In this document: in pieces, positions 1 to 28,848 of the stretch | Layout of the letters: each line of letters starts with the position of its first letter | How positions within the stretch are numbered: the first letter of the stretch is position 1 | IMG/VR virus record: IMGVR_UViG_3300023310_000001 | Location: 1-30,167 of that record | From: a virus | Length of the DNA stretch: 30,167 nucleotides | Strand: one strand, 5' to 3' | Notes under the pieces: model-generated | The model's input: only the letters and a program-made list of their open reading frames with translations | Databases searched by the model: none | What the model was told of the DNA's origin: nothing | Made by a program: the position numbers and the translations under genes

Positions 1-337
1 TTTCGGCAGTGATAGCATCTTTCCATGTTGTTGTGCTGTTCATCATGTCATGATATTGCATATCCAGTTGGTCTTGTATAGTTGGGTACACTCTATCACG
101 CTGGTATTGTGTAGCTACAAGCCCCGATTTGAACGTATCCCTTGCCAGCACATCCCCTTCTACCCATGCAGTACCGCTCCATTTCGGCGCATGGAAGCCA
201 ACAGGCTGAATGTCAGTGGCATTGGGTGGAATAGTGTAGGTTTTAGCTGCTGTAGAAACCGTGGACGCATCTGCGTTAATCAGTTCGTCTTCTGTGTATA
301 GCTTGGTTTTAGAGTCGTATTTATGTATAAGTTTCAT
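1..337 (-). CDS. Tail fibre assembly-like protein, 3' end outside window
   Basis: The gene starts at ATG (337-335), overlapping the fibre stop codon as TAATG. It reads about 112 codons without a stop to the window edge, so the C-terminus is missing. The N-terminus begins MKLIHKYDSKTKLYTEDEL. The middle has a GWV-like stretch (KWSGTAWVEGD), and near the edge there is YPTIQDQLDMQYHD. A YP-x-I-x-DQLD-x-xYH signature is typical of small phage proteins encoded just after a tail fibre, often annotated as fibre assembly or DUF4376-like. Coupling to the upstream fibre gene suggests stoichiometric expression with it. The assembly role is inferred from position and this motif. A virion fibre-tip protein is the alternative. 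Confidence 0.7.
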   Translation of the reverse strand, partial: MKLIHKYDSKTKLYTEDELINADASTVSTAAKTYTIPPNATDIQPVGFHAPKWSGTAWVEGDVLARDTFKSGLVATQYQRDRVYPTIQDQLDMQYHDMMNSTTTWKDAITAE

Positions 338-1512: not shown

Positions 1513-1609
1513 GTACTGCTCCTTCTATGGGTCAAGTTGCATCACTGCAAGTCATCAAACTATTGCTTATTTATTGTTATAATGCAAGGTGTGACGCTTA
1601 ACCATCGTG
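1513..1609 (-). promoter_or_regulatory. Fibre leader region with CTTGCATT motif and GUGA hairpin
   Basis: This 97-base gap lies between the giant gene and the fibre gene. On the transcribed strand it holds CTTGCATT (plus positions 1581-1588) followed by an AT-rich stretch. Next comes a perfect 5-bp hairpin, TTGCA-GTGA-TGCAA, at 1537-1550, and then the fibre Shine-Dalgarno AGGAG. The same CTTGCATT octamer lies in the gap between terL and portal, again upstream of hairpins with a GNRA loop. It may be a promoter or processing site that raises fibre expression. No good -10 box at ideal spacing is obvious, so this is a weak call. Confidence 0.35.
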
Positions 1610-4600: not shown

Positions 4601-7600
4601 ACGAATTTCACCAATGAATGTATCAACCCATTTCTTGATTGAGCTGGGAGCGTTTTCATAATTAGTTACAGCGTACGATAAATATTCATCAAAAAGATGC
4701 TCTGGCTTAGTCCCTGCGGCTTCTGCGCGTGCTTCTGCTGCCTTTATCCAGTCAAACACTTTACCGCGCTTACCAGCCATTTTACGCATTCTGTCAAGTT
4801 GCTTGAAGGCGTTTGCTTTGGCTTTGCTGTTGCCATCTAAGTGGCTGTGCAATGACTCATGTAGCAAAGTGGATGCAAGCGTATTCGCATCGTTGTTTTC
4901 AGCTACGATATGAACAGTGCCGTCTTTATCAGTCCAGCCTTGGATTGCGCCGTTTTTGGAATACTTGGCGGTGATTGAAATATCAGCTTCATCAAACACT
5001 ACAAAATTATAATTCGCATTATTTTCCTGCTCTTGTGTAATATATGCTTTTGCTTCATCTTCAGTTTTGAAGTGGACACCGTTGGCTAAATAATCATTGC
5101 CTTTAACCATCCAGTCACCCGCAACTGTTTCGCTTGGTGGGGTGATGTGGTAATTGGCAACTTGCCTGCTTGAGCCGTCCAGATACTTGATGCCGCGAAT
5201 GCCTATAGAATGAAGAAGTTTCGACACATTTTTTGACTTGTCCCCATTTCTAGGATAGCCCTTAAATAATCCATACCCATCAATAGCCTTGTCTTTAAGG
5301 TCGGAATATATGTTTTTACCATTGATATTATCTTCATTTATTCCAATAGTTTTTAACGCCTGTTTAACCTTATCGCTCTGCTCACTTAAAGGCTTGTCCC
5401 ATAGCAGATATTCGTCTTCACTGGGCTTGAGGTCGACCTCATAAAGTCTTCCTTTGTTGTCAGCGTTGTAGGAATCGTAATCAATCTCATTCAAAATCTG
5501 CAACGATTTCTCTATTTTTTTAACACGGTGTTCGTACTTACCTGTATCGGCGTACCGCTGTTTAGCCTTTTTCAGCTTATTTTTAAAAAATGAAAAAGCC
5601 CGTTCTCTTTGAGATTCAAAGTTTTCTTTTGTGCCTGTCAGCTCATCAATGACATTGCTCACATAACCAGCGTCATCATCATAATCGTAGCTGCTGTAAA
5701 ATCTCTTAATATCACTGCCATCGCCTGCTGTTAGCTTTTCCCTGTACCACTCCGCAACATCTTTATTGCCTGCAAAATACAAGCCATACCCATAAGCCTG
5801 TGCACCTTCACCAGTGCCGATTGCATCAGTAGTAAATCTATTATGGTCATGCGGTGAACCATGCCATGCAGTCATACGTTTAACCGCATCAGGAACATTA
5901 TTTGCAGTACGGTGAACAACGACCTTGCCGTTTTTGATTGCGCGTTTCATAGCACTACCGAATTGTTTAATTAGGGATTGCTCTGTTTGGGCTACGGTTT
6001 GACCTGTGATGATTGCGCCTTTCGAGAATTTAGCCCCATTCTCCTTAATCAAGTCTAAAGACACCTCGCCTTCAACCATGTACATATCGCGGATTTGCTT
6101 AATTTCTTCTTGCAATGATTTTAGCTCATTTTCTTTTGCAAGTTTGTCGCTTTCAATTTTCTTGATATTGTCATTCACTTCATCTTTACGGATAAGATTG
6201 CGGCTGACAGTTTCTTTATTCCGCTTATGAAATTCACGAATAGCCTTTGCGCGGTCTTCATCATTCATGCCGTCATATCTAGGCACTTGACGAACTTTTA
6301 AGCCAGCCAAGACCTCATCTATATCTACAAGCGACCTCTCTGCACCTGCAATCCTGTTATTAAACCGCTTAATAGTGTTGGATAAGTCTGCGAATACACC
6401 ATTAGAGTTAGAAATCTTATGCTCAATGATGAGTTTCTGCTTCTTAATAGGGTCTTGCTCTAGTGCTATTGCAGCTTCAAAAGGGTCAGACGGTGCTTTG
6501 TTTGAAACATCAACAACATCGCTGTCTGTATTGCCCCAATATACTTCATTAAAACTTTTCTTGCTGTCAATAATCCTGTTGCTTAACTCATCGAATGAGC
6601 CAGATAAATCAAACGTATGACTACGAACGGACGAATATCTATTGCCTTGACGAACGCCACGATTGATACGCTGCTCTATTTCATCAGGACGATACGGCTT
6701 ATCAAGTTGATAGATGTCTGTTGTATTAACCTGTAAATCAACACCCACGCCAAGTTTTGGAGTGTTACCAATGATTACGCGGATTTCACCACTGTTATAA
6801 GCATCAATAATACCTTGTAACCTTTCTGGTTTAGCTCCTGATTTTACAACCTTGCCAGTTATTGGATTGACGTGCATGCCGCCATTAACAAAAACTACCT
6901 CTGTTTCTTTCAAGTTTGTCGCCTTAAGTATCTTATTGCGAATATCCTCATGGGTTGAGCCGCCAGTATTGGCAAACTTTAACCTGTCTAAGAAGATAAT
7001 CTGCCCTGACTTGCTATCTTTTTTAACCTGCTCTGCAACCAATGCAACTGTTTTTGCTATCTTAGAGTATGATTGATTCTGCTCATCCTTAAATACATCG
7101 CCTTCACTTACTAGATCACTAAAGCTTGTTGGCTTATAAAGGCGAAGGTCGATACTTGCATCACGCCCTGCGCCATACATTTGGATAATTTCTTCTGATT
7201 CTACATCATTACCCTGTCGCTTCTGCTGCGCCGCTTCGATTGATTTAATAAGCCTTGCTTGTATATCCCCGAAAACAACCTTGCCCTCATCGCTTAGTTC
7301 CATTTGGTGAACAATATCAATTTGCTCTGGTCGCGTAAGGTCTTTGGCAGATTCAGGGCTGCGATAATCAACATAACGCTTAATAATGTTGTTTAATGAT
7401 TCTATATTCTTAATCTCTTGCAGTGCTGGGGTTTGTTTTACTGAACCATCAGCGCGGACATCTTCTTCCATACCGACTTCTAAGAACTCATCTACAAAGT
7501 CATTAACACTATTAACACCATACTCTTCCAAAATTTTAGTATCTAAATGATGTAATAGCGTCATTAGTTCTAGTGGTTTGTTTGGCGTAGGCGTGCCAGT

Positions 7601-10600
7601 TAGCAAGATTATGTTATTACCATTGTTCTTTCTTGAAATATATTGTGTCTTAAATCTAAAGTCATAAGCGCGTGCGCCGCTAAGATTAACTGCAATAGGG
7701 TCTTGGTTTTTATCAGCCTTTCCATCTGCACCTTTAGGGAATGTTGGGATAAGTGCTAAATCTTTGCCTAGCCCGCCACGAACATCAGAAGATAGCATGC
7801 CTATATTTTTATAGTTCTGAACTTCATCTGCAATAATTGCATCAAAGCCTAGCCGTGCCATGTCAAAGCCTTCACGAGCCTTGCCTGCATGATCGCTCAT
7901 TAACGTTGTCTCAAGCATCTTAAGTTTAGCCAACCTTGATTCTTTAGCTCTAATTTGTGACTTGGTTAATTCATAATCGCTCTTTTCATTGGTGCTGATG
8001 CTCTCTAATAGTTCGCGCACATATTTACGCATATCATTTGCTGGGAGCGTGAACTTTTGCGAAAGCTCCATAGAAATAAACGTGAAGTCATATCTATTAT
8101 TCGATAGGTTATTCACCATTGTTTCTTTATCAACTGCATTCATAGCAGCCCACGGCTTAACCTTTCCTTTATTAACACCGCGTACATAACGTGGAAACTC
8201 AAAGATTTTAGAGTTTGGATATAGTTCGCGTGCTGTTTCTTCCCATTGTGGAATGGTATTTGCAGGAACAATAAACAGGGGCTTCTTCATAACCCCACGG
8301 TCAAGCAACTGTTTCGCTGCAATAATAGCAGTAGGAGTTTTTCCTAAGCCAGGGGCAAATGCTAGAACGCCACGCTTGTTATAGATAAGACGCTCTAAAC
8401 CCTCTTGCTGGTGCTGCATTAAGGTGAATTTCTTACCTCTGAACGTGGTAGGTAAATTCTTTATGGTACTGCCATTGAATACAGGCGCGGCAAAGAAGTT
8501 ATTACGCCTATTAAACACATCCTCTACTTCCTGATCAAGCCCATTATCATGTATAGCATGTTTAATTCTTGGCAGAATATCCTTCTTAAGAAGCTCTTGC
8601 GCATCTTTTACACGCTGGTTAAATGAGCTTTCTAATTCGTCCTTTCCTTTCTTTACTAAAGAACTGTTATTAACATAGTTATTATAAATATCGCGCAGGT
8701 CATGTTCTGGAAACAAGTTAGAGCCATGAACTACTGTGCCGTCATAGCTTTCACGATAACCTATCATGTCACGAACACTTGCTGGCAACCATGCTTCTTT
8801 ACCGCTTACTGTAATGCGGCTCATTGGGATCTTGGCTGGCAATACTTTATTAAGACGGTCTTTCTGCTTATTACGCTGCGCCGCTGGCTTCACTTTACCA
8901 AGCGCGTCTAGCTTATTATAAATGTTCCCTGCATAATATAACCGCGCATTCTGGATGGTGGTAGGGCTAACTCTGGCATAATCATTAGTATCTAATAAAT
9001 GTTGAGTTTCTTCTTGGCTAATCGCGCCTTCTTTAATGACCCCTTCTGCATCTTCCGCAGCTTCGGCTCTATCTAATAATGGCGAATCGGCTGTGATTTC
9101 AAGCTTACCACTATCTTCAAAGCGCACTTTACTGCTAAATATCTCACTTGGATTAAATGAATCATCGAATAAACTAAGGAATTGCTTTAACTTCTTATCT
9201 GCATACATGGATTTTGCGCTAGATATTAAAAGCCTATCTTTATGTGGTGCTTTGGTGAATGTATCTTGGTATTTTTTAATCAATGCTACATCATGGGTAT
9301 CTTCAATACGCTGCAATAATGCAAGCTTCTTAACCGCAAGACTTGATACTTCGTGCCCGAATAGCCCGCTTCCTTCTTCCTCACTAAAGCTAACCGCCTT
9401 ATCTGCCACGATTGCTGTTGTTTCGTTCTTTAACTCAAAATAAGGTACTGACTGATTAGAGAAGGTTAGATTATTAGCATCTGCATACGCCTGTGCTTCT
9501 TCTCTATTAGCAAACTTGCCTTTAACATTCTTAACCTTCTTGTTATACGTTTGTGGCTTGATAGCTATATCATCATATCTTGCTTCACCAGTTACGATAA
9601 ATCCTTCTCTGCCGTACATGTTTGTACCAACTGATAAGTCGCCCAATATATTCTTTGGATTATCAATAAAATACTGATTCATTTTATTGCCGTCTTTACT
9701 ACCTAGCTTAATAAATGAATCATTAGTAGCTTGCTGTTTAGATACAACCCCGCTAGGACGCTTTTGCAGAAAGATAATATCAATCATTACATCTGTTGAA
9801 GCATTAGCCTTCTGTGTACCCATAGGAAGCCTGTATGCCCCTATCACATCCGCCTCTGACATTAAGTGCTTGCGCAATGCCCATGCTTCGGTTGAACCGT
9901 CCATAGTGCCTGTGGAAGTCATAAAGGCGATAACTCCACCATCTTTTACTTTGTTTAATGATTGAGCGAAAAAGAAATTGTGAATTGCCTTGAATCTTGG
10001 CTGAATCAATGCTGCGTGTTTACGGGCTAATTGCGAGAATGAAGCAAATGGAACGTTGCCTATGATTAAATCATATCCTTTACCCTTAAATGTTTCGTAC
10101 GATTCTGTTGCTACTTTTGCTTGTGGATATAAGCGTTTTACAACTTCGATATTTGTCTCATCAATATCTACTGCATCCCATTTCGCATCTGGGCGCATAC
10201 CTATAAAGTTACCACTCCCAACTGAAGGTTCAAGAACGCGATTGTATTTTATCCCAGCCGAATCTAGCGCATTGAATATCGCTTTAATTGTACTGTAGTC
10301 AGTATAGTGCTGGTTAAACATTGCCGCACCAGCATCTTTTGATTCCTCTAAGCTTAATCCGCCTTTCCCAGTATATTGGCGCAGAATCTCTTTGTCTGCC
10401 TGCGTTACTTCTGCGACTGGCTTTTTAAGTATCTCATCAACGGCATTGTTAATATCTCTGCGTTTAGCTGGGGTCAATGCAATGTTAGGGCTATCCTCTA
10501 AGTTGTAATTTAAATCCCTAACATCAGTCTTCCTAGAGTCTCCTGATAAAATTCCGTGTTCGCTAGATGTCCGTTCGCCATCTCGTTTACTTTGCTCATC

Positions 10601-13600
10601 GGCTTTGTGTCCGACCAATCCTTGATTTTCGGACTGTAACCCATCTCTACCCCCACCGCTCGGAATAGCCGCGTTAGTAGTGTTTTGTCCTGTTTGTATG
10701 CCTGACTTACTTCCGCTTCTTCCTTCTTGCTTATCCAGTCCTTGTTCCTCAACTGGTACTCTTGGTTGATTATGTTCTGCGTCATCATCTGCACTAACAG
10801 TTCCTTTTGTTCCTGCGTCATTTCTTTCATGCTCAACCTCTTTCTTCCCGTCTGTGTTATCTATTATAGCAGCTTCAACCGAAGCTGCACTATCCATATC
10901 TCTAGCTAAATCAGTAGCACGCGGATCAAACTTAACATTCATATAAAATTGTTTCAGGTACGGCTTGATAATATCGCCTAAATCATCAACCATAGCTTTT
11001 GAGTAAGCTGCGAAAGTTCGCGCCCCACTCTCGATGTGATAACCCGCAAGCGTAATGCCTGCCTGTACTAACTTGGGGTCTAGTCCTGCGCTAGTTTGAG
11101 ATAGCCCTGCTAACAATATCTTTCTAGCTTCGGCAGCGGCATCGCTTGTGAATATTTTATTTGCTGATATTTTAGGTGGCTGTTCGTTCTTAACCACCGC
11201 TTTTTCTACGCTTTCAGCCTGTTTTGTAGGCTGTGGAGTAGTTTCTTTGGGTTTCACGGTGGTTTCACGGGCTGTTTCGCCAGTTACGTCAGATAGATTG
11301 CCTTTGGATAGTTCAGCTTCTGCAATTTTTGCTTTTAAGTATGGAAGAAGTAATGCGCCATGTCCGCCACGAACACTTAGATTGTACGCTTTGCCGTCGT
11401 CCCCTTTTGTTAGCCATGTCTCCCTACCATGCTTTTTAATCGCCACGAAGCCTTCACTAACCACTTTATCAATCCAAAGTGCTGTGGCTTCATCAGCTTT
11501 TGAAACAACCTTTTCCCTCAACCTTTCAGAATTATGTTTTGCCTGTAACGCATCATCATCGGCTTTATCTACACCAGCCCACTCTAAGATAGCATCCCAT
11601 GTTTTACCCTGCTGCTTAGGTAGGTTTACCCCAGTAGCTTCCGTGAATACCTCTTTGGCTGTTTTATTCGCTCCATTCGCGAGGTTCTTTAATGCGTATG
11701 CGTCCTTATTTATAATCCCTTTAGCGATGGCTCTGTGCATTTCGCGCACAGCTGTATTTTCATCGCCGCGCTTGGCAGCTAATTTCGCTGCATAAGATTG
11801 GGCGATTTGCTCTATCTGTTCATCCGCTTTGCTTTTAGTAGTTTCCGATATACCAAGCTTGTTTACGTCAGGCTTATTATGCTTCAAAAATTCAGCCGCC
11901 AGTTCATCTTGGCTGCGGTTTTGATTATTACCTAATGATTCGAGTATTTTGCTACCACGCTCTTTGGTTATGCGCTCTAATTCAGCTAAGGCTGCTTTCT
12001 TTGTGTCCCCAATAGCTCCAAGTCTTAACCCTGTTGTTTTCTCGACTGTTTCCCATAGACCATTGTCTTTATTTCTACCTACAAAATAATCAACACCATG
12101 TACAGTTACATCTTGTGGGCTGGTAAATTCTATCGGTTTATCTTTGCCGACACCGTATGCAACTTTTCTTTTAGCCTTCTCAATAGCTGGCTTTTCTGAC
12201 GATACAGGCTCTACACTGCTTACTTTCGGCTGTGCTTGAGCAGGTGAGTTAGCTATTGGAGCGAGTACATATCCACCTTCGACTGCTTGTGCCTCATGTG
12301 TGCCTGTCAGCTTCTTGGCTTTAATTGCCATATTTGCAGACTTCTCGGTTGCAAACGGCTGTCCATTCGCTCTTTTAATGGAAGGAGCTGTAACATCCGA
12401 GCCACCTTGAGGAAGGTTTATGTTCGGATAACCGCCAATAGGAGCGCGACCATGTATTGCGTTAGCGGCACTTGTATCATTTTTTACTGCTTCTTCTGCT
12501 TGTGCTGATTGAGCAAGGTTGTTTTCCATAACCTGCGCATCAGTAAGTGGGCTTGCAATACCTTCTGGCGATACTTGCGTGCCGATTATTGTATTTCCAT
12601 TTCCAAGTGCGTGCTGTTGCTCTGGTGCAGCAAGAGCCTTGCGGTTTAATCTGGCTTCCCTAGAAATAGCCTCTTCATTGTTGGCTACCGTAACTAATCC
12701 CTGCATCCATTGGTTAAGATTATCTTGTGATTTAACATCGGCTTCTGTTCCCTGCTGGATAGTGCCATCTGAATTGCGCCTTGAAACCTGCTGTGGTGCT
12801 GGCAATGCTTTTTGTAACATACCTTGTGCATGCTGGCTTGACTCATCTAATGGGGTATCGCCAAATAAGGCATCAAGCTCTTTGCGCAACCCCGCGCCTG
12901 TTAAATCTGTGGCTTCATTTGCTGCTCTGATAGACTCATCTAGCGTTTTTGATGGGTCGAGAATATTATCAATGGATGCTTGTGCCTTTTCTGCATCGAG
13001 TTCGCTTGCTGCTTCTTTTAGGTGCGTTTTGGTTACGGGTGCGATTGACCCAACTGCGCCGCCCATAACGCCGCCTGCTAATGCTCCACTAATGGCATTT
13101 TCAAAAACGCCCTCGCCAATATCTTGATTTGGGTTGGCAAATTCTTTAATCGCTTTATTCTGGGCTACTTGCTCTGCAATTCCCTGTGTAAATTCTTGAG
13201 TGCCTTCACCTGCTGCGCCTAGTATGATATTGCCTTTACGTGTTGCCCCTTCTAAGGCTTTGCCAAGAGTTGAAGATGATACAGCCTTTCTACCAAACCA
13301 TCCAGCGAACACCGCCCCCATTGGTGCGCCAAGCAAAGCAGTCATTGTGCCTGCATTCCATTCTGCTTGATTGCGTGCTTTCTTGGCAATTTCCAACTGT
13401 GCTGCATGAGGTTTAATGCCGCTATCAATCAATGACTGATATTCAGGCGACTGCGATATTACTTCTTGCTTCATTGCAATTACAGCATCAAAAACACTTG
13501 AGCCTGACATCCCTGCGCCAACAACGCCTTCACCAATTCCGAAGCCAACTGCGCCTGTAATTGCGCCTTTATGCTTAACGGCTTGTTTCGCCAATGGAGT

Positions 13601-14086
13601 GCCGCCTTTTACTGCTGCCGCTGCTGCTCCGCGCCCTACTGCGTTCCCTAATACTGCTAATCCTTTAGTAGCTACACCGCCAATTCCCATGCCTGCCGCT
13701 GTTCCGAATAATGATTGTGCCAACATGCCTGATACTTTTCTCGCGCTTGGTGCCTGCCAATCATAATTAAACGGATTGAACGAGCTACCTTCTCCGACTT
13801 TATGTGCAATCTCTTCTTTGTCGGATTTTGATTGTGCAGGTGAAAGTTCCTTTTTCAGATTGTTTGTAGCACTCCTGTAAAAATCAGCCGCGCCTTCCGC
13901 GCCAACTAATGATGACAGTCCTTGCATAGTGGACGTAACACCCATTTCTGCTTTGGTTGCCATATCACCAATAAAGCTATCGTTTGTATCTAATTTACTA
14001 TATTCGGCATTTGCAAAATCGAATCCACCTTCCTTCTTGTTATCTTTTATTGGTGTGTATTCTGCTGATTCAAAATCGAATGACAT
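1610..14086 (-). CDS. Giant polyvalent protein: methyltransferase, SF2 helicase, ADP-ribosyltransferase, metallopeptidase, LPD38-like C-terminus
   Basis: About 4,158 aa. I chose ATG at 14086 (MSFDFESAEY) because GAGG lies nine bases upstream; an in-frame TTG five codons earlier lacks this spacing. Approximate residue map: 1-380 Gly/Ala-rich hydrophobic segments; 565-620 a small domain with PFATEKSANMA; 965-1055 a domain starting ISANKIFTSDAAAEARK; 1080-1210 a polar linker; 1215-1450 an N6-adenine-type methyltransferase (LEPSVGSGNF at 1285, NVPF at 1344); 1880-2500 an SF2 helicase (APGLGKT at 1910, DEVQ at 2087, LTGTPTP at 2160, RGVRQGNR near 2476); 2738-3030 an ADP-ribosyltransferase (WHGSPHD, YGYGLYFA); about 3076 a zincin motif HESLHSH; 3300-4100 an LPD38-like region including FLFFNPNVQG. 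This architecture matches DarB-like polyvalent proteins, some of which are packaged in virions and protect injected DNA. Injection here is inferred from the neighbouring putative ejection genes. Confidence 0.88.
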   Translation of the reverse strand: MSFDFESAEYTPIKDNKKEGGFDFANAEYSKLDTNDSFIGDMATKAEMGVTSTMQGLSSLVGAEGAADFYRSATNNLKKELSPAQSKSDKEEIAHKVGEGSSFNPFNYDWQAPSARKVSGMLAQSLFGTAAGMGIGGVATKGLAVLGNAVGRGAAAAAVKGGTPLAKQAVKHKGAITGAVGFGIGEGVVGAGMSGSSVFDAVIAMKQEVISQSPEYQSLIDSGIKPHAAQLEIAKKARNQAEWNAGTMTALLGAPMGAVFAGWFGRKAVSSSTLGKALEGATRKGNIILGAAGEGTQEFTQGIAEQVAQNKAIKEFANPNQDIGEGVFENAISGALAGGVMGGAVGSIAPVTKTHLKEAASELDAEKAQASIDNILDPSKTLDESIRAANEATDLTGAGLRKELDALFGDTPLDESSQHAQGMLQKALPAPQQVSRRNSDGTIQQGTEADVKSQDNLNQWMQGLVTVANNEEAISREARLNRKALAAPEQQHALGNGNTIIGTQVSPEGIASPLTDAQVMENNLAQSAQAEEAVKNDTSAANAIHGRAPIGGYPNINLPQGGSDVTAPSIKRANGQPFATEKSANMAIKAKKLTGTHEAQAVEGGYVLAPIANSPAQAQPKVSSVEPVSSEKPAIEKAKRKVAYGVGKDKPIEFTSPQDVTVHGVDYFVGRNKDNGLWETVEKTTGLRLGAIGDTKKAALAELERITKERGSKILESLGNNQNRSQDELAAEFLKHNKPDVNKLGISETTKSKADEQIEQIAQSYAAKLAAKRGDENTAVREMHRAIAKGIINKDAYALKNLANGANKTAKEVFTEATGVNLPKQQGKTWDAILEWAGVDKADDDALQAKHNSERLREKVVSKADEATALWIDKVVSEGFVAIKKHGRETWLTKGDDGKAYNLSVRGGHGALLLPYLKAKIAEAELSKGNLSDVTGETARETTVKPKETTPQPTKQAESVEKAVVKNEQPPKISANKIFTSDAAAEARKILLAGLSQTSAGLDPKLVQAGITLAGYHIESGARTFAAYSKAMVDDLGDIIKPYLKQFYMNVKFDPRATDLARDMDSAASVEAAIIDNTDGKKEVEHERNDAGTKGTVSADDDAEHNQPRVPVEEQGLDKQEGRSGSKSGIQTGQNTTNAAIPSGGGRDGLQSENQGLVGHKADEQSKRDGERTSSEHGILSGDSRKTDVRDLNYNLEDSPNIALTPAKRRDINNAVDEILKKPVAEVTQADKEILRQYTGKGGLSLEESKDAGAAMFNQHYTDYSTIKAIFNALDSAGIKYNRVLEPSVGSGNFIGMRPDAKWDAVDIDETNIEVVKRLYPQAKVATESYETFKGKGYDLIIGNVPFASFSQLARKHAALIQPRFKAIHNFFFAQSLNKVKDGGVIAFMTSTGTMDGSTEAWALRKHLMSEADVIGAYRLPMGTQKANASTDVMIDIIFLQKRPSGVVSKQQATNDSFIKLGSKDGNKMNQYFIDNPKNILGDLSVGTNMYGREGFIVTGEARYDDIAIKPQTYNKKVKNVKGKFANREEAQAYADANNLTFSNQSVPYFELKNETTAIVADKAVSFSEEEGSGLFGHEVSSLAVKKLALLQRIEDTHDVALIKKYQDTFTKAPHKDRLLISSAKSMYADKKLKQFLSLFDDSFNPSEIFSSKVRFEDSGKLEITADSPLLDRAEAAEDAEGVIKEGAISQEETQHLLDTNDYARVSPTTIQNARLYYAGNIYNKLDALGKVKPAAQRNKQKDRLNKVLPAKIPMSRITVSGKEAWLPASVRDMIGYRESYDGTVVHGSNLFPEHDLRDIYNNYVNNSSLVKKGKDELESSFNQRVKDAQELLKKDILPRIKHAIHDNGLDQEVEDVFNRRNNFFAAPVFNGSTIKNLPTTFRGKKFTLMQHQQEGLERLIYNKRGVLAFAPGLGKTPTAIIAAKQLLDRGVMKKPLFIVPANTIPQWEETARELYPNSKIFEFPRYVRGVNKGKVKPWAAMNAVDKETMVNNLSNNRYDFTFISMELSQKFTLPANDMRKYVRELLESISTNEKSDYELTKSQIRAKESRLAKLKMLETTLMSDHAGKAREGFDMARLGFDAIIADEVQNYKNIGMLSSDVRGGLGKDLALIPTFPKGADGKADKNQDPIAVNLSGARAYDFRFKTQYISRKNNGNNIILLTGTPTPNKPLELMTLLHHLDTKILEEYGVNSVNDFVDEFLEVGMEEDVRADGSVKQTPALQEIKNIESLNNIIKRYVDYRSPESAKDLTRPEQIDIVHQMELSDEGKVVFGDIQARLIKSIEAAQQKRQGNDVESEEIIQMYGAGRDASIDLRLYKPTSFSDLVSEGDVFKDEQNQSYSKIAKTVALVAEQVKKDSKSGQIIFLDRLKFANTGGSTHEDIRNKILKATNLKETEVVFVNGGMHVNPITGKVVKSGAKPERLQGIIDAYNSGEIRVIIGNTPKLGVGVDLQVNTTDIYQLDKPYRPDEIEQRINRGVRQGNRYSSVRSHTFDLSGSFDELSNRIIDSKKSFNEVYWGNTDSDVVDVSNKAPSDPFEAAIALEQDPIKKQKLIIEHKISNSNGVFADLSNTIKRFNNRIAGAERSLVDIDEVLAGLKVRQVPRYDGMNDEDRAKAIREFHKRNKETVSRNLIRKDEVNDNIKKIESDKLAKENELKSLQEEIKQIRDMYMVEGEVSLDLIKENGAKFSKGAIITGQTVAQTEQSLIKQFGSAMKRAIKNGKVVVHRTANNVPDAVKRMTAWHGSPHDHNRFTTDAIGTGEGAQAYGYGLYFAGNKDVAEWYREKLTAGDGSDIKRFYSSYDYDDDAGYVSNVIDELTGTKENFESQRERAFSFFKNKLKKAKQRYADTGKYEHRVKKIEKSLQILNEIDYDSYNADNKGRLYEVDLKPSEDEYLLWDKPLSEQSDKVKQALKTIGINEDNINGKNIYSDLKDKAIDGYGLFKGYPRNGDKSKNVSKLLHSIGIRGIKYLDGSSRQVANYHITPPSETVAGDWMVKGNDYLANGVHFKTEDEAKAYITQEQENNANYNFVVFDEADISITAKYSKNGAIQGWTDKDGTVHIVAENNDANTLASTLLHESLHSHLDGNSKAKANAFKQLDRMRKMAGKRGKVFDWIKAAEARAEAAGTKPEHLFDEYLSYAVTNYENAPSSIKKWVDTFIGEIRAFLIKQFGLDMKITPATLRGLARQHIADMGKETSQQEGLSPVFRSMAENHPAQSKLSENIDKVAPEETLLQKTGRVWQDKMVRFAVIRDWVAEHGKALSEAADVWMHEGNMHGKIAAATEDFREIRMKDIIQSTQKAGFKLSELAEYMEMRHIPEANARMRKIHKDQDATANGITDEEAIAITDKYEAMANFNEFSALTDKVDSIIKDTRNMYVKRGIISKDMADSWSALYKHYVPLKGIGDNAPTGTGAGLSVNGKQKKRLGHGTREEAVLQNIFGDHERAIMVTEKNTVGMALIRMAIEMANPNIITVNKPVKKKVLTNKAVYAAIYDGNILMSFPTKKEASDFINGDSKETGRNFMKYDVEVSYDPMVAMMASPMLAENEANVYIDGYSVRVQLNDSLLARAYKNLGIEHLGMVLAAGRSFNAWLSKAYTGYNPEFALVNMARDYTAGIINLSGDYGITTTTKIYKNYGKALKELFKHFVSNGDSAIVNDYRASGGNTGASYLPDAERIGLDMTNSFNEFAGAIDTYNRVYNEVIAEGGSKGKARIKATAKAGQAKLSAIPVVGHFLTVMQHVNALTENALRVATYMTLTDKGIMGDKVLSKAKAAQAAKRSTVNFNRKGEVGAQAGAMFLFFNPNVQGTERILTTLFKGEHKNQAKILVGMMALAGYSIAEAMRGDDEDRWAAIPDFIKDRNIVTFVGEDMYLMPIPYGYGIFHVLGNVMSDAAHGEDLDKLGIRLAEAMFENFSPPGNPIPDGNFSPLQIMPTAIKMALGVNANENGFGRPIQPIMYSKYKPDSENQYRKSKGSLYESVAKGMNELTYGNSYTKGYVDVSPESLRFWVESLTGGAGKFVVDSVGLASIVAHGASPELREIPIVRKFAKADTIANTRGQFWRAVDEVRDATNELKGAKKYGADNLNDIKAKIGFLAKLSKRANKEQKKIKKKRDYIDDINADDDLTLNDKRLRIKQVEIEERKLYLQFLSKFKLAKDRHKNK
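10510..10830 (-). CDS. Overlapping ORF, 106 aa, inside giant gene (candidate)
   Basis: This ORF is read one frame off from the giant gene on the same strand. ATG at 10830 (MKEMTQEQKELL) has AAAGAGG six bases upstream, a good Shine-Dalgarno spacing. The product is Lys/Glu/Gln/Met-rich with helical periodicity early on (ELLVQMMTQNIINQEY), then TLLTRLFRAVGVEMGYSP and a C-terminal YQETLGRLMLGI. Over the same bases the giant protein encodes a polar, low-complexity linker between its domains (SGSKSGIQTGQNTT and similar). A folded product overprinted on a disordered linker is a known pattern for real overlapping genes. No family is recognised. Shadow ORFs of similar length occur elsewhere in this window, so confidence is moderate. 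Confidence 0.45.
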   Translation of the reverse strand: MKEMTQEQKELLVQMMTQNIINQEYQLRNKDWISKKEEAEVSQAYKQDKTLLTRLFRAVGVEMGYSPKIKDWSDTKPMSKVNEMANGHLANTEFYQETLGRLMLGI

Positions 14087-14104
14087 ATTATGTTGCCTCA
14101 ATAC

Positions 14105-21383: not shown

Positions 21384-22460
21384 TCAAGCTAGTGCGTTTG
21401 TTCCTACTTCATATACAGCCATTTGAAGGTCATTCAAAATAACAGCGTTGTAGTAGAACTTAGTACCAACATAGCCGCGTTGACCCTGTGGATCAGCTTT
21501 GTCTTTCTGCCCAGGTGTCATTGCAGTGATATTGTCGCCTTTGACATTACAACCGATATGGCCCCAAGCATCGGACGAACCGACAACCACTTGATAAACA
21601 TCTGCGAATGTGCCAGAAGTAGATAGCAATAGAGGTACAGTACCTGTAACTGCTGCGCCAATGTCCTGAACTGCTACTAATTCAGGTGATGAGACAAAAC
21701 GGAACTCTTCACAAGTACCGAACTCACCAGCTACGGCGCGATTAGGATCGCCGTATTGAGAAACATGGACGAAACCAGGCAAATCACGAATATCAGGATG
21801 AAGGTCGCAAGAAATAAATACAGGGAAAGAGGCTTCAACTGCACTTGTACCATACAAGCCAGAAGCAGGAATACGCTGTACCATTTTAGAAATGCTTGTT
21901 GCATGGTTACTAAGCATTGAGCGAGCGATTTTACGCAAGCCAATCAGGCTAATTGTGCCGTTAACAGTGCCACGAGAGATACCAGTACCACCGTAGAACT
22001 TGTTGGTACAGCCTTTCAGCACGCCAAACAAAGCCATTTCATGCACAAGACCCGTACGTTCACCAACCAACTGTGTCATCTGCTTAGGAATGTCATCCTC
22101 ATACAAGTCGAACGTACGGTCTGTGTAGCCATACAATACGTTGTATTGGTTAAGCGTTTGGGTAATGTCTTGAACAGTGATGTTTTCTGCTGCGGACGTT
22201 ACACCTTCTGCCGTTAGATGTCCTGCGGCATATTGAGTAGCGCGATCGCCAGCACCGTCTGGGAAGAAGCGGTTAGGCTGTGCGGCAGTCATGCCTTTAT
22301 TTAAGAAACGACGATATTTTACTATGTCGCCTGTATTTGGTTTGAAGTCGTCATTAACGCCTACTGTACCAAGTACGATTTTTGGCATCGCATGTTTTAA
22401 GATGCGACCTTTGATAATTCCTACACGCTGTGGTGTTAGGGCGAACGATTGAATAGCCAT
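21384..22460 (-). CDS. Major capsid protein, N4-gp56 family type
   Basis: 358 aa, starting at ATG with AAGGAG eight bases upstream. The N-terminus has KHAMPKIVLGTVGVN, followed by GDIVKYRRFLNKGMTAA, the segment that in N4-gp56-type capsid proteins leads into the HK97-fold E-loop. The middle has TQTLNQYNVLYGYTDR and ERTGLVHEMALFGVLKGCT, forming the long spine helix region. Later FISCDLHPDIRDLPGF and CEEFRFVSSPELVAV match the conserved A-domain pattern. Its length fits the family. It lies right after the scaffold gene and before a strong terminator, as expected for the most abundant virion protein. Confidence 0.9.
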   Translation of the reverse strand: MAIQSFALTPQRVGIIKGRILKHAMPKIVLGTVGVNDDFKPNTGDIVKYRRFLNKGMTAAQPNRFFPDGAGDRATQYAAGHLTAEGVTSAAENITVQDITQTLNQYNVLYGYTDRTFDLYEDDIPKQMTQLVGERTGLVHEMALFGVLKGCTNKFYGGTGISRGTVNGTISLIGLRKIARSMLSNHATSISKMVQRIPASGLYGTSAVEASFPVFISCDLHPDIRDLPGFVHVSQYGDPNRAVAGEFGTCEEFRFVSSPELVAVQDIGAAVTGTVPLLLSTSGTFADVYQVVVGSSDAWGHIGCNVKGDNITAMTPGQKDKADPQGQRGYVGTKFYYNAVILNDLQMAVYEVGTNALA

Positions 22461-23326: not shown

Positions 23327-23565
23327 TTACTACTCCTGTTTGCAGCCGTTAGGTTGCTCACTGATATTTTTGGTTCATTTAGAGCCAAAATTCGTTTAAT
23401 ACTGCGGATTTCTCCGCGCAGAATATTGGTAGCATCAATATTCTGTACTGCATCATTTTTCTTTCGCGCTGATTGCAACTGTGTTTCAAGATGCTCTTTC
23501 AGCTTTAACCAAAGCGAAGTCCTTAAATCTTCGTTGGTCAGTTCAAATTGTTTAGGGGCGATCAT
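23323..23565 (-). CDS. Small helical protein between portal and scaffold, 80 aa
   Basis: It overlaps the portal stop and the scaffold start, each as ATGA, so all three are translationally coupled. The sequence is Lys/Arg/Leu/Gln-rich with helical periodicity (LWLKLKEHLETQLQSARKK, then LRGEIRSIKRILALNE). Small helical proteins at this location are common in podoviruses and are usually left without function. It could assist portal or scaffold assembly. I recognise no family. Confidence 0.7.
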   Translation of the reverse strand: MIAPKQFELTNEDLRTSLWLKLKEHLETQLQSARKKNDAVQNIDATNILRGEIRSIKRILALNEPKISVSNLTAANRSSK

Positions 23566-25850
23566 TTAGTAAATGCCTCGCCATCGGGCGCACGTCCAAC
23601 GGGTTCAACTGCTGGAGTTACAACCTGTGGGGCTTTGCCATCCATATTCGTTAATTCTTTCTGTGTGCGCAGCTTCATAGCTGTATTCGCAAGCTGGGAT
23701 TTAACGTCTGCAAGTTTAAGTTCATTCTTATTCGCATAGTCCATAATAGCTAGTTCACGGCGAAGGCGTAATTCTTCACGTTTTGCTTGGAAGTCTTGCG
23801 CTGAACGCTCTTTCATAGTTTCTTGATACGCTTCGTCACGGTCTAAGTCCTCAACCATCTTGCGTTCATTCGACTGCATTTGCATATCAGCAATCTTCTC
23901 GCGTGATTGAGTGTTAATCTTGGCAACTTCAACCTGCGGCATAGGCGGTACTTGTTGTTGAGCTTGTTGTGCCTGCTGTTTTTCTTCTTCGGACAATTCA
24001 AAGCTCTTAGGATTAAACTTCCAAGACTTAAGAACTTCATCCGCTGCTTTCTTAGGCGAGTAACCGAATGCTGGATTAAGTGACATTTGCAGGATTTGCG
24101 CTGCTTGCATGGATTGAATTTCACGTTCAACCAATGCGGAAGATCCAATGGCTTCAATCTGCATATCGCCTTTCTCATCATCTTCACCATGAATAAGAAT
24201 CCACTCGTAATAGCGGCGGATATGAGGCTCTGTAATACGCTCATCAAATATGCGTGCAATTCTGCGAAGTAATGCGGAAGCGTTCTTATGAAGTAATTCC
24301 ATGCCACCAACCGTATCTGGCGCACTGCCTTGTTGACCTTGTAATAAGAATGTTACACCTGTTGCGTCTTCCATCATCTTGCTTGCGAGATTGATAAGAT
24401 TGACTAACTCACCTTGATTAGATGGGATATTAACGATTTGAATAGCGTCAGCTACCTTATCAACGCCTTCGTCCTCAACTGCTACCCATGTTTTGCCGCC
24501 ATACATATTGTAATTTCCATCTGCTGGCATGATTACACCCTGCTTTAATATGATCTGCGGTGCTGATGATAGGCTTGTATTCTTCATTAAAGCGCGTGCG
24601 GAGGCATTCAGCATGTCTTGAGCAACACGACCTTGCCTTGCTACACCAATTCCAAACGGTGAGCCTGCGCGCGCTTGCCACGGCATAACGTCATAAGGAA
24701 ATTCGCCGCTTGTGTTCGGGTTCATATACCCTTTAATAACTGTATCATTTACTAGCACAACAACTGCATGAGCAAACTTCATTGAGTTATCGTCTTCATT
24801 GTCAAACTCTTTACATCCGCACGCGATTAAATCTTCTGCTTCAATCTCGCCGTAGTAATACCAAACCTCGAACCTATCGTCATCTTGTGTGGCTTGTTCT
24901 AACCTTCCGTCCGCATATTTCTTGTTTGCGCCTTCCTCAAGAACCTTTTTAATACCTTTTGCATGATAGCTAGGTGACTCGGCAAGCTCTCTTAATTGCC
25001 CTGCGCTTAGATATTCTCGCTCTAATACATGCGAACCATCGTGAATATTCTCACCGCAATTACCATCGGGGAAAAAATTAAACGGATCAACTCTTTTTGA
25101 TGATGGGGATATTTTGTACTCAACAACCAATGCGTCATCAATAACAGCTTTTGATTTACGGCGAACAGGATATGCCCCACGGATAATGCCAGTGCCAATC
25201 TTGGCGGCATCTTCGATAACTTTACGGACTTCTGACTTATACTGACATTCAACTAAGTAATCTTTTATCTTAGTCTCTGCTTTCTTTACTTTATCTTCTG
25301 CGTCAATTTCTTCTTTAGCTGCGAATTGACCCAAAGTGTGGGGAGTTCCATCTGGGTTATTTACTGGAGTATTATCACCATCAACTACTTGCTGGACTGA
25401 CCCGCGAATCTTATCCATATCTACGATAGGCGTTGCTTTAATTGCGAAATTCCAGTCTGTGGCAGGTAATAGAATATCACCCAATCTTGCTGATGCTGAA
25501 TCAACAAATTGACGGATAGCATTGAAAAATGCAGTGCATTCGCCGTTTTCTTCTTTGCTTCCTGCTGATGCGCTGCTTGTTAGTCCGCCATTTGCCGACA
25601 ATGATTTAGTGTATTCGCTATTTGCACGATTAGAATCGTCAATGCCTTCGTAGTATTCAGCGTCTTCCGTCCAGATACGCTCAATGCCTGATACTTGCCT
25701 TGCTTTAACCGCTGCATCGCGCTTCTTACCAACAGCCTCACCCAGCTTAGTTAAACGCTGCTCTTTCATCATCTGACGGTCAGCCAGCATACGCAGCATT
25801 TCGTGCGAATGCTCTGCTTTAGTCGTATCGTCTGAAACATCAGTATTCAA
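23562..25850 (-). CDS. Portal protein, probable TTG start
   Basis: 762 aa. The portal forms the dodecameric DNA channel at one capsid vertex. TTG at 25850 has GGAG seven bases upstream; the first in-frame ATG is 17 codons later without a good site. The body shows typical portal sequence: ECTAFFNAIRQFVDSASARL, a wing region with VRKVIEDAAKIGTGIIRGAY, KRVDPFNFFPDGNC, then a crown-adjacent FPYDVMPWQARAGSPFGIGV. Later come VTFLLQGQQG and ALLRRIARIFDERIT. The C-terminal 130 residues are Gln/Lys/Glu-rich (EEEKQQAQQAQQQ type) and form a barrel or coil. A seven-T run right at the TTG could shift the apparent start: with one T fewer, an upstream ATG would be in frame. Confidence 0.88.
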   Translation of the reverse strand: MNTDVSDDTTKAEHSHEMLRMLADRQMMKEQRLTKLGEAVGKKRDAAVKARQVSGIERIWTEDAEYYEGIDDSNRANSEYTKSLSANGGLTSSASAGSKEENGECTAFFNAIRQFVDSASARLGDILLPATDWNFAIKATPIVDMDKIRGSVQQVVDGDNTPVNNPDGTPHTLGQFAAKEEIDAEDKVKKAETKIKDYLVECQYKSEVRKVIEDAAKIGTGIIRGAYPVRRKSKAVIDDALVVEYKISPSSKRVDPFNFFPDGNCGENIHDGSHVLEREYLSAGQLRELAESPSYHAKGIKKVLEEGANKKYADGRLEQATQDDDRFEVWYYYGEIEAEDLIACGCKEFDNEDDNSMKFAHAVVVLVNDTVIKGYMNPNTSGEFPYDVMPWQARAGSPFGIGVARQGRVAQDMLNASARALMKNTSLSSAPQIILKQGVIMPADGNYNMYGGKTWVAVEDEGVDKVADAIQIVNIPSNQGELVNLINLASKMMEDATGVTFLLQGQQGSAPDTVGGMELLHKNASALLRRIARIFDERITEPHIRRYYEWILIHGEDDEKGDMQIEAIGSSALVEREIQSMQAAQILQMSLNPAFGYSPKKAADEVLKSWKFNPKSFELSEEEKQQAQQAQQQVPPMPQVEVAKINTQSREKIADMQMQSNERKMVEDLDRDEAYQETMKERSAQDFQAKREELRLRRELAIMDYANKNELKLADVKSQLANTAMKLRTQKELTNMDGKAPQVVTPAVEPVGRAPDGEAFTK

Positions 25851-25945
25851 AAAAACACTCCATCAAAGGGCAATCTTTCGATTGTTTGCTCACGCTTCAC
25901 AGCGTTGGCTAATTTCTGGATGTGCCACTTAAGGCACACCCCCAT
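25847..25945 (-). CDS. Candidate 32-aa ORF coupled to portal
   Basis: ATG at 25945 opens a 32-codon ORF (MGVCLKWHIQKLANAV, then KREQTIERLPFDGVFF). Its TGA overlaps the portal start as TTGA, the same style of overlap used by other gene pairs here. The peptide is amphipathic with a basic middle. There is no clear Shine-Dalgarno before it. Three of the leader hairpins fall inside it, so the region may be RNA rather than protein. No family is recognised. Confidence 0.3.
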   Translation of the reverse strand: MGVCLKWHIQKLANAVKREQTIERLPFDGVFF

Positions 25946-25976
25946 CTATGGGCTATCCGTTGTCTAGCGACAATGG
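25871..25976 (-). ncRNA. Structured leader with five hairpins before portal
   Basis: On the transcribed strand, in order: CC-TTGTC-GCTA-GACAA-GG with one mismatch (25957-25976); CCCA-TAGA-TGGG (25941-25952); a 9-bp stem with one GU pair, GGGTGTGCC with GGCACATCC (25918-25941); ACGCT-GTGA-AGCGT (25892-25905); CAATC-GAAA-GATTG (25871-25884). The last two have GNRA tetraloops. The array begins just after a candidate transcription start and ends just before the portal ribosome binding site. I cannot match it to a known riboswitch or ribozyme class. It could be a regulatory leader, a processing site or a stability element. Confidence 0.5.
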
Positions 25977-25987
25977 CATCACATGCA

Positions 25988-26016
25988 ATAGTAAATACTT
26001 AAAAATATAAATGCAA
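25988..26016 (-). promoter_or_regulatory. Candidate sigma-70-like promoter between terL and portal
   Basis: On the transcribed strand TTGCAT and TACTAT are separated by exactly 17 bases, placed right after the terL stop. The predicted start, near 25980, falls just before the first leader hairpin. Each box is an imperfect match, so this is moderate evidence. It would give portal and capsid genes transcription separate from terminase. Confidence 0.4.
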
Positions 26017-26022
26017 GACATT

Positions 26023-27567
26023 TCACATTCCCATCCCAGAAACTGTAATTTTTGGAGGTTTGATTCTAGGCATCTTAGCCTTAACCTCTGGTATAACAGG
26101 TACTGCAAAGGTCAGGGCTATAGAGTCAGCCCTGTCAGGCGACTTAACGCCACGCTTCTTAGCTGAATCCTTGCTCTCCAACAGCATTTCTCCGCCACGA
26201 TAGAAATATTTTAAGGCTGTCAGCTCGCTTTTGAGGTCGTAGTCATTTGGTATTGACGCTGTTTTAAGCCATAATCTCATTTCATTCCACATTAAAGCCC
26301 TTAGATTGTAATGTTCACCATCACTTAATCGAATAGCGCAGTTTACATCCTCCACAATCCTTACCTTCTTGCCAGTGCGATTGTTTATAGAATCAGGAAA
26401 CCATGCCCTAAGCATGTCCGCAACACCTGAACCAATGCCGATTACATCAACTGCAATCTGACACGGCTTCTCACCAAAGTTCTTAATCTCTTTTCTTACA
26501 GTAGATGCTACATGAACTGTATCCATCTTATTCAGAACAATTTGATTGATAAGTAATCTTCCGCGTCTGAATGTTATCACGCTGCTATCATCACCAAATC
26601 TAGCAACATCAACGCCTACATATAACTTACCAATAGCTTCAACATCCGCTGCTCCGCGCATAGCTGCGGCATTTACAGTCTCACCATCAATGAGAACATC
26701 AGATACAGAACCCTCATAGTTCCTATCGATTTCTTGCGCAACAATAATCTTATCCAGAATCTTACATTGATTATCATACCAATCCTTGCCTTTTCGTGGA
26801 TCGTCACGCCAATCGAATACAAATTTGCTTATCTTTCCTTCGTGAGCTTTACGATAGAACGCATTGCCAGAGCCATTTGGTGTTGATACATCAATCTTGC
26901 AGTTAGATGTTTGCGATAATGCTGCATCAATAGCGTCAGCATGCTCAAAGAAAGCTGCTTCATCTTTGAAATAGATTGAAGTCCTGTTGCCGCGTCCAAT
27001 GTTATCGCCAGCTTCGCCGATTATAGACGAACCATTTTCAGGGTTAATAATACGCATGAATGGTGCGCACTTCTTCTCATCCCAGCCTTTCGGGATAAAT
27101 TCCTTTGGGAGCATCTTGATAAATATGCGTATTTTCCAGAATAGGCTCTTCGGGTCGCCAATTTTATCTACATATTCCTCTTTGCGTGAGCCGAAACCAA
27201 CCACTGTGCCTGAGTGAAATAGAAACATCCATACAGCAAACGCAACGCATAACCAAGATACGCCCATATCACGCGACTTTTCCACCAGCCCATCTTCCCT
27301 GCCTTTCCATAAATCATACAGCCAGTTTATGTATTCTTCTTGTTTCTCAAATAACACGAATGGTATATACGCTGGCAATCCAACTTCTACATTACGCGGG
27401 TCGAACGTCATACCAAAATCATAAATGAATTGTGCGGGGTTTTCAGCATAGAACTCTTTTGTTTTTTGAACTAATTGAGGGTTGCTGCGTAGGTTTTTAA
27501 GCTTACTTAGTCTTTCATTGAATATAATTGAGTAGTCAGGGTCTTTGAAACTGAATGCTTTAGTCAT
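26023..27567 (-). CDS. terL: Terminase large subunit
   Basis: 514 aa. This is the ATPase/nuclease motor that cuts concatemeric DNA and pumps it through the portal. The ATPase shows a Walker A-like EKSRDMGVSW at about residues 96-105, Walker B SIYFKDEAAF at about 197-206 with Asp202/Glu203, and the coupling motif DVSTPNGSG near 227-234. The RNase H-like nuclease shows YVGVDVARFGDD (Asp320), AVDVIGIGSG (Asp374) and SPDRADS near 476-482. All three acidic clusters are intact and the length is normal. The start ATG has AAGGGTG six bases upstream. The gene follows the small subunit and precedes the portal leader, as is usual. Confidence 0.95.
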   Translation of the reverse strand: MTKAFSFKDPDYSIIFNERLSKLKNLRSNPQLVQKTKEFYAENPAQFIYDFGMTFDPRNVEVGLPAYIPFVLFEKQEEYINWLYDLWKGREDGLVEKSRDMGVSWLCVAFAVWMFLFHSGTVVGFGSRKEEYVDKIGDPKSLFWKIRIFIKMLPKEFIPKGWDEKKCAPFMRIINPENGSSIIGEAGDNIGRGNRTSIYFKDEAAFFEHADAIDAALSQTSNCKIDVSTPNGSGNAFYRKAHEGKISKFVFDWRDDPRKGKDWYDNQCKILDKIIVAQEIDRNYEGSVSDVLIDGETVNAAAMRGAADVEAIGKLYVGVDVARFGDDSSVITFRRGRLLINQIVLNKMDTVHVASTVRKEIKNFGEKPCQIAVDVIGIGSGVADMLRAWFPDSINNRTGKKVRIVEDVNCAIRLSDGEHYNLRALMWNEMRLWLKTASIPNDYDLKSELTALKYFYRGGEMLLESKDSAKKRGVKSPDRADSIALTFAVPVIPEVKAKMPRIKPPKITVSGMGM

Positions 27568-28166: not shown

Positions 28167-28781
28167 TCACTCCACCACCCACTTGAGCAATCCATCTCTG
28201 ATTAACGGGTCATCCTGCATTAGCGCATAACGGTGAATTTCTGCATACTTAGCGCGGTCATATCCAGCTTTTGCTTCCTCTGGTGTTTTGAATAGACCAA
28301 GGTGTTTGGTTTTGCCGTTTATTCTGATTGCTGCTCTATATTTTTTATGCCGTTTATGCCAGCTTACACCCATCGGGCATAAACCACGTACAGCATTATT
28401 GGCAGTCAACAAATTGTTCAATGCCTGCGGGATAAATCGGCAGTACTCTGGACAATAGACTTTATTCCCTTGTTTTATGATGTCTTTATCAAGTGCTAAC
28501 CCACCGAACTCTTGCGTTAGCATCCATTTTTCAAACGCGCTGAACGTCAACCACTCCTTGCACACTGTGCAGCCGATATATGTTGGTTTTTTCTGTTGAT
28601 ATTTGGCACTATAACAGCGTTCAAGCATATCCACCCACGTTCGGTACGGCTGATACATCATTCTTTTACCATCAATAGTCAGGCACACAACAAACCATGA
28701 GTCGTTCACCCCGATACCCTGCACCAATTTACGATGAGCAAGCGACATTGCAGTTGCTTTAATCTTTGGAAAGTTGTCCAT
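28167..28781 (-). CDS. HNH/AP2-type homing endonuclease-like protein
   Basis: 204 aa from ATG at 28781 (MDNFPKIK), chosen because GGAG lies seven bases upstream; an in-frame ATG at 28808 has no such site. Residues about 47-125 carry the Cys-containing fold of phage HNH proteins: YRTWVDMLERCYS, TYIGCTVCKEW, FSAFEKWM, LALDKDIIKQGNKVYCPEYC and FIPQALNNLL. Residues 138-182 match a DNA-binding AP2 domain (GVSWHKRHKKYRAAIRINGK, then LGLFKTPEEAKAGYDRAKY). Such genes are mobile and nick or cut DNA at cognate sites. It stands between two intact genes, so it is free-standing rather than inside an intron. The leader carries a notable hairpin. Confidence 0.85.
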   Translation of the reverse strand: MDNFPKIKATAMSLAHRKLVQGIGVNDSWFVVCLTIDGKRMMYQPYRTWVDMLERCYSAKYQQKKPTYIGCTVCKEWLTFSAFEKWMLTQEFGGLALDKDIIKQGNKVYCPEYCRFIPQALNNLLTANNAVRGLCPMGVSWHKRHKKYRAAIRINGKTKHLGLFKTPEEAKAGYDRAKYAEIHRYALMQDDPLIRDGLLKWVVE

Positions 28782-28790
28782 GTGAAATCT

Positions 28791-28848
28791 CCAGTAGGTT
28801 AATTCCATCCAGTACGATAGAGGAGCAACCCTCTATCTCATCTACTGG
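28791..28848 (-). promoter_or_regulatory. Switch-like hairpins overlapping HNH ribosome binding site
   Basis: On the transcribed strand GATAGAGG and CCTCTATC (8 bp, perfect, six-base loop; 28816-28837) form a strong hairpin. CCAGTAG upstream (28842-28848) can pair either with the nearby TACTGG (28809-28814) or with the distal CTACTGG (28791-28797). The distal copy ends in the GG of the GGAG site used by the HNH gene. The two pairings exclude each other, so one fold hides the ribosome binding site and the other frees it. An in-frame ORF without a clear start also crosses this region. Confidence 0.5.

Follow-up and report, generated by a model that had tools for sequence, protein, structure and literature searches.

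A hairpin-and-box leader element before phage virion genes: a candidate structured ribosome-binding site

Gene layout and element copies in the window

The window (the whole stretch of DNA that was analysed, 30 167 nt) is a 30-kb virus contig with 43% G+C. All of its structural genes lie on the minus strand and both a small and a large terminase gene are present. The portal gene heads a run that includes the major head protein gene. An HNH endonuclease with an AP2 domain, homing-endonuclease-like, is encoded upstream of the terminase genes (28167–28808, minus strand). The minus strand of 1610–14101 encodes a large polyvalent protein of 4163 residues in which LPD38, SNF2/ResIII helicase-like and Eco57I-type methylase domains are present; proteins of this kind enter the host together with the DNA.

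The portal leader was taken as the reverse complement of 25851–26022, from the terminase stop to the portal TTG start. The minus strand of 25871–25976 folded into five consecutive stem-loops with an energy of −40.0 kcal/mol (z = −4.76; none of 200 shuffles was as good); for the whole 188-nt leader z was −3.2. The density of stems beyond chance that a preliminary description had seen in the terminase–portal gap was thus confirmed, and the GUGA and GAAA loops it had named are both present. Its five stems of 4–9 bp were found as five stem-loops, but the lower limit was too high, the second stem (CCC-AUAGAU-GGG) having just 3 bp. Because the plus strand of the same interval scored almost equally (z = −4.44), folding energy alone cannot pick the strand; the minus strand was chosen on the basis of gene order and the comparative data. 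The candidate promoter that had been placed ahead of the hairpins is there and is conserved in a close relative (L025), but it is weak and falls below the threshold of a consensus promoter scan. A search of 25500–26300 for intrinsic terminators or attenuators (a G+C-rich hairpin followed by a U run) gave no sites, and a tRNA/tmRNA search found none.

The idea of one five-hairpin RNA peculiar to the portal gene is not supported. The leader instead consists of two copies of an element of about 37 nt together with local additions; a third copy precedes a tail-fibre-like gene, and elsewhere the element stands mostly before capsid, scaffold and tail genes. The element is made up of a GNGA hairpin and a box CCC...GGAG. 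The hairpin (hairpin B) has an inner stem of 4–5 bp, an A.C or C.C mismatch, outer pairs and a GNRA loop that is nearly always GNGA. The box, (U)CCC-N-U-N-GA-U-GGAG, lies within a few nucleotides of hairpin B, with the start codon 5–9 nt further on, and its GGAG is the Shine–Dalgarno sequence of the downstream gene. Three boxes occur in the window (25858–25870, 25940–25952 and 1519–1531), and none of 100 shuffles gave as many matches. The features are listed below; bit scores refer to a covariance model, R1, built from an alignment of 32 copies (A1).

26023–27567, minus strand: large terminase gene.
25988–26016, minus strand: weak sigma70-like promoter TTGCAT-N17-TACTAT, read from the sequence, about 12 nt upstream of the first hairpin.
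25940–25977, minus strand: element copy 1 (33.2 bits, E = 3.9e-9; this copy is within the R1 training set), with hairpin CC-A-UUGUC-GCUA-GACAA-C-GG containing an A.C mismatch (25957–25976), linker AUAG and box CCCAUAGAUGGGG (25940–25952).
25918–25941, minus strand: third stem-loop of the minimum-energy fold, 9 bp, loop UUAAGU, overlapping the end of box 1.
25888–25909, minus strand: hairpin of element copy 2, GC-CA-ACGCU-GUGA-AGCGU-GA-GC, from the fold (R1 hairpin match at 25891–25906, 12.6 bits, E = 0.014).
25871–25884, minus strand: extra GAAA hairpin CAAUC-GAAA-GAUUG, from the fold, inserted between the hairpin and the box of copy 2.
25858–25870, minus strand: box of element copy 2, CCCUUUGAUGGAG, an exact match (18.1 bits), identical in the relatives L025 and L002.
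23562–25850, minus strand: portal gene, TTG start at 25850, 7 nt after GGAG (PHROG matches phrog_332/1216/156, portal or head-tail adaptor, E down to 1e-46).
21384–22460, minus strand: major head protein gene.
1519–1554, minus strand: element copy 3, hairpin UUGCA-GUGA-UGCAA and box CCCAUAGAAGGAG (24.9 bits, E = 1.7e-6; not in the training set).
337–1512, minus strand: tail-fibre/minor-tail-like gene, ATG at 1512 (PHROG tail fibre and minor tail matches, best E = 5.6e-14).

Copy 1 lies at the 5′ end of the portal-led operon, near where the transcript is inferred to start, and no start codon directly follows its box; it departs from GNGA in the loop only (GCUA). The loops of copies 2 and 3 are both GUGA. 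In copy 2 the hairpin and the box are separated by the 14-nt GAAA hairpin, whereas in copies 1 and 3 the box follows within a few nucleotides; the GAAA hairpin, like the long third stem, was added locally and is no part of the element. The GGAG serves a virion gene as its Shine–Dalgarno sequence in copy 2 (25858–25861, portal) and in copy 3, the box of which contains GAAGGAG and ends 6 nt before the ATG of the tail-fibre-like gene. The window's own major head gene has no element copy.

Relatives, wider family and covariation

Relatives were fetched by the portal protein and include L025 (97% identical over the portal part) and L002 (65%). L025 keeps the promoter and leader almost unchanged although different genes stand between the terminase and the leader, homology to the window resuming at the promoter; the third stem carries two substitutions there, with pairing kept as G-U/U-G wobbles. 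The intervening region of L025 (4140–4830) holds two ORFs that are absent from the window, one of them with a helix–turn–helix-like sequence. L002 keeps the last part of the leader with compensatory changes, followed by the identical box CCCUUUGAUGGAG: its GAAA hairpin reads CAGUC-GAAA-GACUG, an A-U pair of the window being replaced by G-C, and the GNGA hairpin of copy 2 differs in letters with pairing kept. A second hairpin-plus-box in L002 precedes a gene for 98 residues. More distant portal relatives have no element copy; the element is therefore gained and lost in the course of evolution.

When viral contigs were scanned for a box with an ATG behind it, at least 120 stretches were returned; about 40 distinct sites among the matches listed have a hairpin with a GNRA-like loop of 4–5 nt directly upstream of the box. 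In a stricter count a GNRA hairpin lay upstream of 33 of 100 sites with box and start codon, compared with 77 of 1432 control Shine–Dalgarno/ATG sites. Among the other box sites, many probably arose by chance, which is what one expects when a 14-base pattern is sought in a collection as large as the one scanned. R1 found 126 copies in 100 of the loci from further scans (40 bacterial-genome loci and 120 more viral-contig loci), often two to four copies per locus. Pattern scans and the covariance model together brought the number of additional copies to over 150, one to five per phage; they come from phage contigs and from prophages, mostly of Alphaproteobacteria, and the hosts named in the records are likewise mainly Alphaproteobacteria. 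In 13 bacterial genomes significant matches fell almost only in one prophage per genome, so the element is not a host leader. No convincing copy was found in 15 cultured-phage records whose terminase, capsid or tail genes are homologous (among them Rhizobium 16-3, Labrenzia V1, Roseobacter RDJL Phi 1 and Pseudomonas RSP), no named cultured carrier turned up among the records examined and there was no relevant DNA similarity to cultured phages.

In the 32 copies of A1, both-side changes at paired positions numbered 56, compared with 18.7 after shuffling (score 0.609 versus 0.19). A second alignment of 111 distinct copies (A2), which as a model alignment leans towards its own structure, gave 181 such changes in the hairpin versus 72 in shuffles; the shuffle controls ignore shared ancestry in both alignments. 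The signal was gone when the pairing partners were slid by 1–3 columns. Pairs that the search pattern had not imposed also covary (columns 3–22: CG 46, GC 39, UA 9; columns 5–20: GC, CG, AU and UA), and column 4–21 is a conserved mismatch of A or C opposite mostly C. The third loop base, left free by the search, is G in every copy of A1 except copy 1 of the window; five-base loops GNGAN also occur. Most copies had been fetched with box patterns. A sample fetched by tail-protein homology, not by the motif, contained nine leaders with clear copies and a tenth that is degenerate; in the nine leaders the stem letters change and the pairing stays, and UCC...GGA is kept while the box loop changes. 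The element is absent from this tail gene's remoter relatives. Folded in isolation, single copies often do not outdo shuffled sequences (L118, copy 3 of the window, the hairpin of which is not the energy minimum in isolation, and L154); the claim of a conserved structure therefore rests on comparison and not on energy. Aligned relatives that lose the pairings without compensation had been set beforehand as the adverse outcome; the opposite was seen in the wobbles of L025, the compensatory change in L002 and the covariation in the wider family.

About a quarter of the copies have a longer form with a second hairpin (hairpin A, loop CUUNGGCAA) 26–37 nt before the box. Hairpin A was met in 40 distinct occurrences (1.6 expected) and its stem covaries strongly. 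With near-duplicates removed, CC stands within five bases after GGAG in 32 of 32 long-form copies and in 28 of 103 copies that lack hairpin A, a difference that shared ancestry may inflate. In the predicted fold of one long-form locus (L253), a helix between loop A and this CC forms together with pairing of UCC with GGA. The co-occurrence suggests a pseudoknot; in the two pairs of the loop A–CC helix that were tested only one-sided G-C/G-U changes were seen, and co-occurrence is the link. All three window copies are of the short form; the long form, with its upstream CUUNGGCAA-loop hairpin and CC after GGAG, is absent from them.

Two arrangements were noted in addition. In L201 (1598–1706) two identical tandem copies, 71 nt apart, precede one head gene, each with an extra upstream GUGA hairpin (AUACC-GUGA-GGUAU). 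In the contigs L033, L042, L046, L111, L141 and L038 the sequence CCCTTTGATGGAG, often after CCGCAC, occurs one to three times before genes without a GNGA hairpin, and is possibly a separate or derived element.

The proteins encoded downstream of the element fall into 42 clusters, some of unknown function. PHROG calls among them cover at least ten distinct families of major head protein (617, 10, 283, 212, 1005, 334, 29, 1328, 1357 and 264), head scaffold, head protease, major tail, minor tail, tail sheath and tail tube. A Brucella endophytica prophage has copies before a small decoration- or scaffold-like gene, the capsid gene and the major tail gene, and another proteobacterial prophage has five, before genes for a small protein, capsid, sheath, tube and a baseplate-like protein. 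The pattern of high-copy genes seen elsewhere fits the window only partly because the portal is not a high-copy protein. In L043 a group I intron (4416–4646; Rfam RF00028, 81 bits) lies shortly downstream of an element-bearing scaffold-like gene.

Possible roles of the element

Judged from sequence comparison, the element may be a cis-acting structured ribosome-binding site that sets the translation of virion genes in many unrelated phages, a reading to which a probability of about one half is given. Translation initiation of the gene directly downstream is the likeliest level of action because the element ends in a Shine–Dalgarno sequence at a fixed distance from the start codon. The conserved UCC and GGA of the box would form a mini-hairpin (P2) that holds the Shine–Dalgarno sequence; P2 could stack on hairpin B since it follows it almost directly. 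As P2 has only 3 bp and one of its arms is the constrained Shine–Dalgarno sequence, that it is conserved is no proof of pairing. L159, L169 and L181 carry inserts between CCCA and CGAUGGA that differ from what L176 has there; these inserts would lie in the loop of P2. In the long form, the NGGC loop of hairpin A is predicted to pair with the CC just after the Shine–Dalgarno sequence and so to close the fold around the ribosome-binding site. The box as a tetraloop receptor is speculation. Pairing of the CCC with helix 45 of 16S rRNA was considered and dropped, the polarity being unfit for pairing continuous with the anti-Shine–Dalgarno sequence.

The element would be read by the ribosome of the host or by some host factor. 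A binder specific to the phage is less likely, because, apart from partial sets of terminase and portal-like genes, the 26 carriers compared have no protein family in common; in BLAST comparisons of these carriers, which include fragments, no common phage protein was found and the widest cluster covered nine of them. The element would set a high or timed output of virion proteins and, as far as the letters tell, may be either an enhancer or a gate. In the window, copy 1 would act at the 5′ end of the portal-led operon, copy 2 would carry the portal Shine–Dalgarno sequence and copy 3 would serve the tail-fibre-like gene. It is proposed only tentatively that the elements are a new class of leader RNA swapped among unrelated tailed phages as a movable control unit for virion genes, in which the GNGA hairpin and the Shine–Dalgarno mini-hairpin (with the pseudoknot in the long form) make up a compact switch read by a host factor; phages of Alphaproteobacteria would then have a shared means of timing or boosting the synthesis of capsid and tail proteins.

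A translational operator, in which P2 hides the Shine–Dalgarno sequence and a protein or metabolite of the host, by stabilising or melting the fold, times virion translation, would explain why the complementary UCC is kept when the loop changes. The strictly conserved GA and U of the loop and the fixed A.C mismatch resemble a binding pocket more than a plain spacer, and the possible pseudoknot surrounds the Shine–Dalgarno sequence. Such an operator is nevertheless doubtful: on its own P2 is very weak, there is no match to any Rfam riboswitch and no trans factor was found, the carriers having no phage protein in common.

Stabilisation or processing of mRNA is unlikely. The hairpin would here cap a 5′ end produced by initiation or RNase cleavage and shield abundant virion mRNAs from decay. 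5′ stem-loop stabilisers are known, and stable GNGA hairpins next to a ribosome-binding site fit them; a promoter directly upstream, present in the window and at a few further loci, would put the hairpin near the 5′ end. A universal upstream promoter is unsupported, however, with a consensus promoter in the upstream 110 nt at only seven of 144 loci (3.4 expected), and a stability hairpin has no need of a strictly conserved box.

Repetition before co-regulated late genes would also suit a promoter or regulator site acting as DNA, but this is very improbable: what is conserved is the RNA pairing, upheld by changes on both sides, the box keeps a fixed position with respect to the start codon, and a promoter at the box would leave no leader because its GGAG is the ribosome-binding site. 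Functionless chance stem density in an intergenic region, with which the poor folding of isolated copies agrees, is scarcely credible given the cluster's z of −4.8 and copies that recur in unrelated phages with covariation.

Control of phage late genes is usually described at the level of transcription. If the structured ribosome-binding site is real, an RNA module shared before capsid, scaffold and tail genes points to a common translational layer in phages that otherwise share few genes. The element would then also help, as a sequence signature, to locate virion genes in unannotated contigs, and could be used as a compact expression part in Alphaproteobacteria.

Comparison with known systems

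The preliminary description could not match the leader to a known class, and this holds: at the gathering threshold no family of Rfam release 15 hits the element, either in the window or in any of 16 loci that carry it, and relaxed thresholds gave nothing credible. What the element has in common with families of that release, riboswitches and phage-associated motifs included, is that it is a conserved folded RNA in a 5′ leader. Open-literature searches on the motif, on phage leader RNAs and on the box letters found no description; a 2017 survey of 224 candidate RNAs was excluded only via Rfam.

Riboswitches of the preQ1-I type resemble the element in size (about 35 nt) and in having one hairpin and a C-rich strand opposite the Shine–Dalgarno sequence. 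The element differs in that its CCC lies outside the hairpin loop, its loop is GNGA and its targets are virion genes, and the preQ1-I covariance model of Rfam did not match it. Mu-gpT-DE, a candidate cis-regulatory motif, is likewise a leader motif before phage head genes; the element is set apart from it by the Rfam non-match, not by direct sequence comparison. The pseudoknot in the T4 gene 32 leader and the MS2 replicase operator are, like the element, folded phage leaders that control the translation of phage genes. Each of these binds the product of one phage's own gene, whereas the element precedes many unrelated genes in unrelated phages for which no common protein was found. A folded leader before a phage gene is a known kind of element, and a family of such leaders shared by unrelated virion genes of unrelated phages appears to be new.
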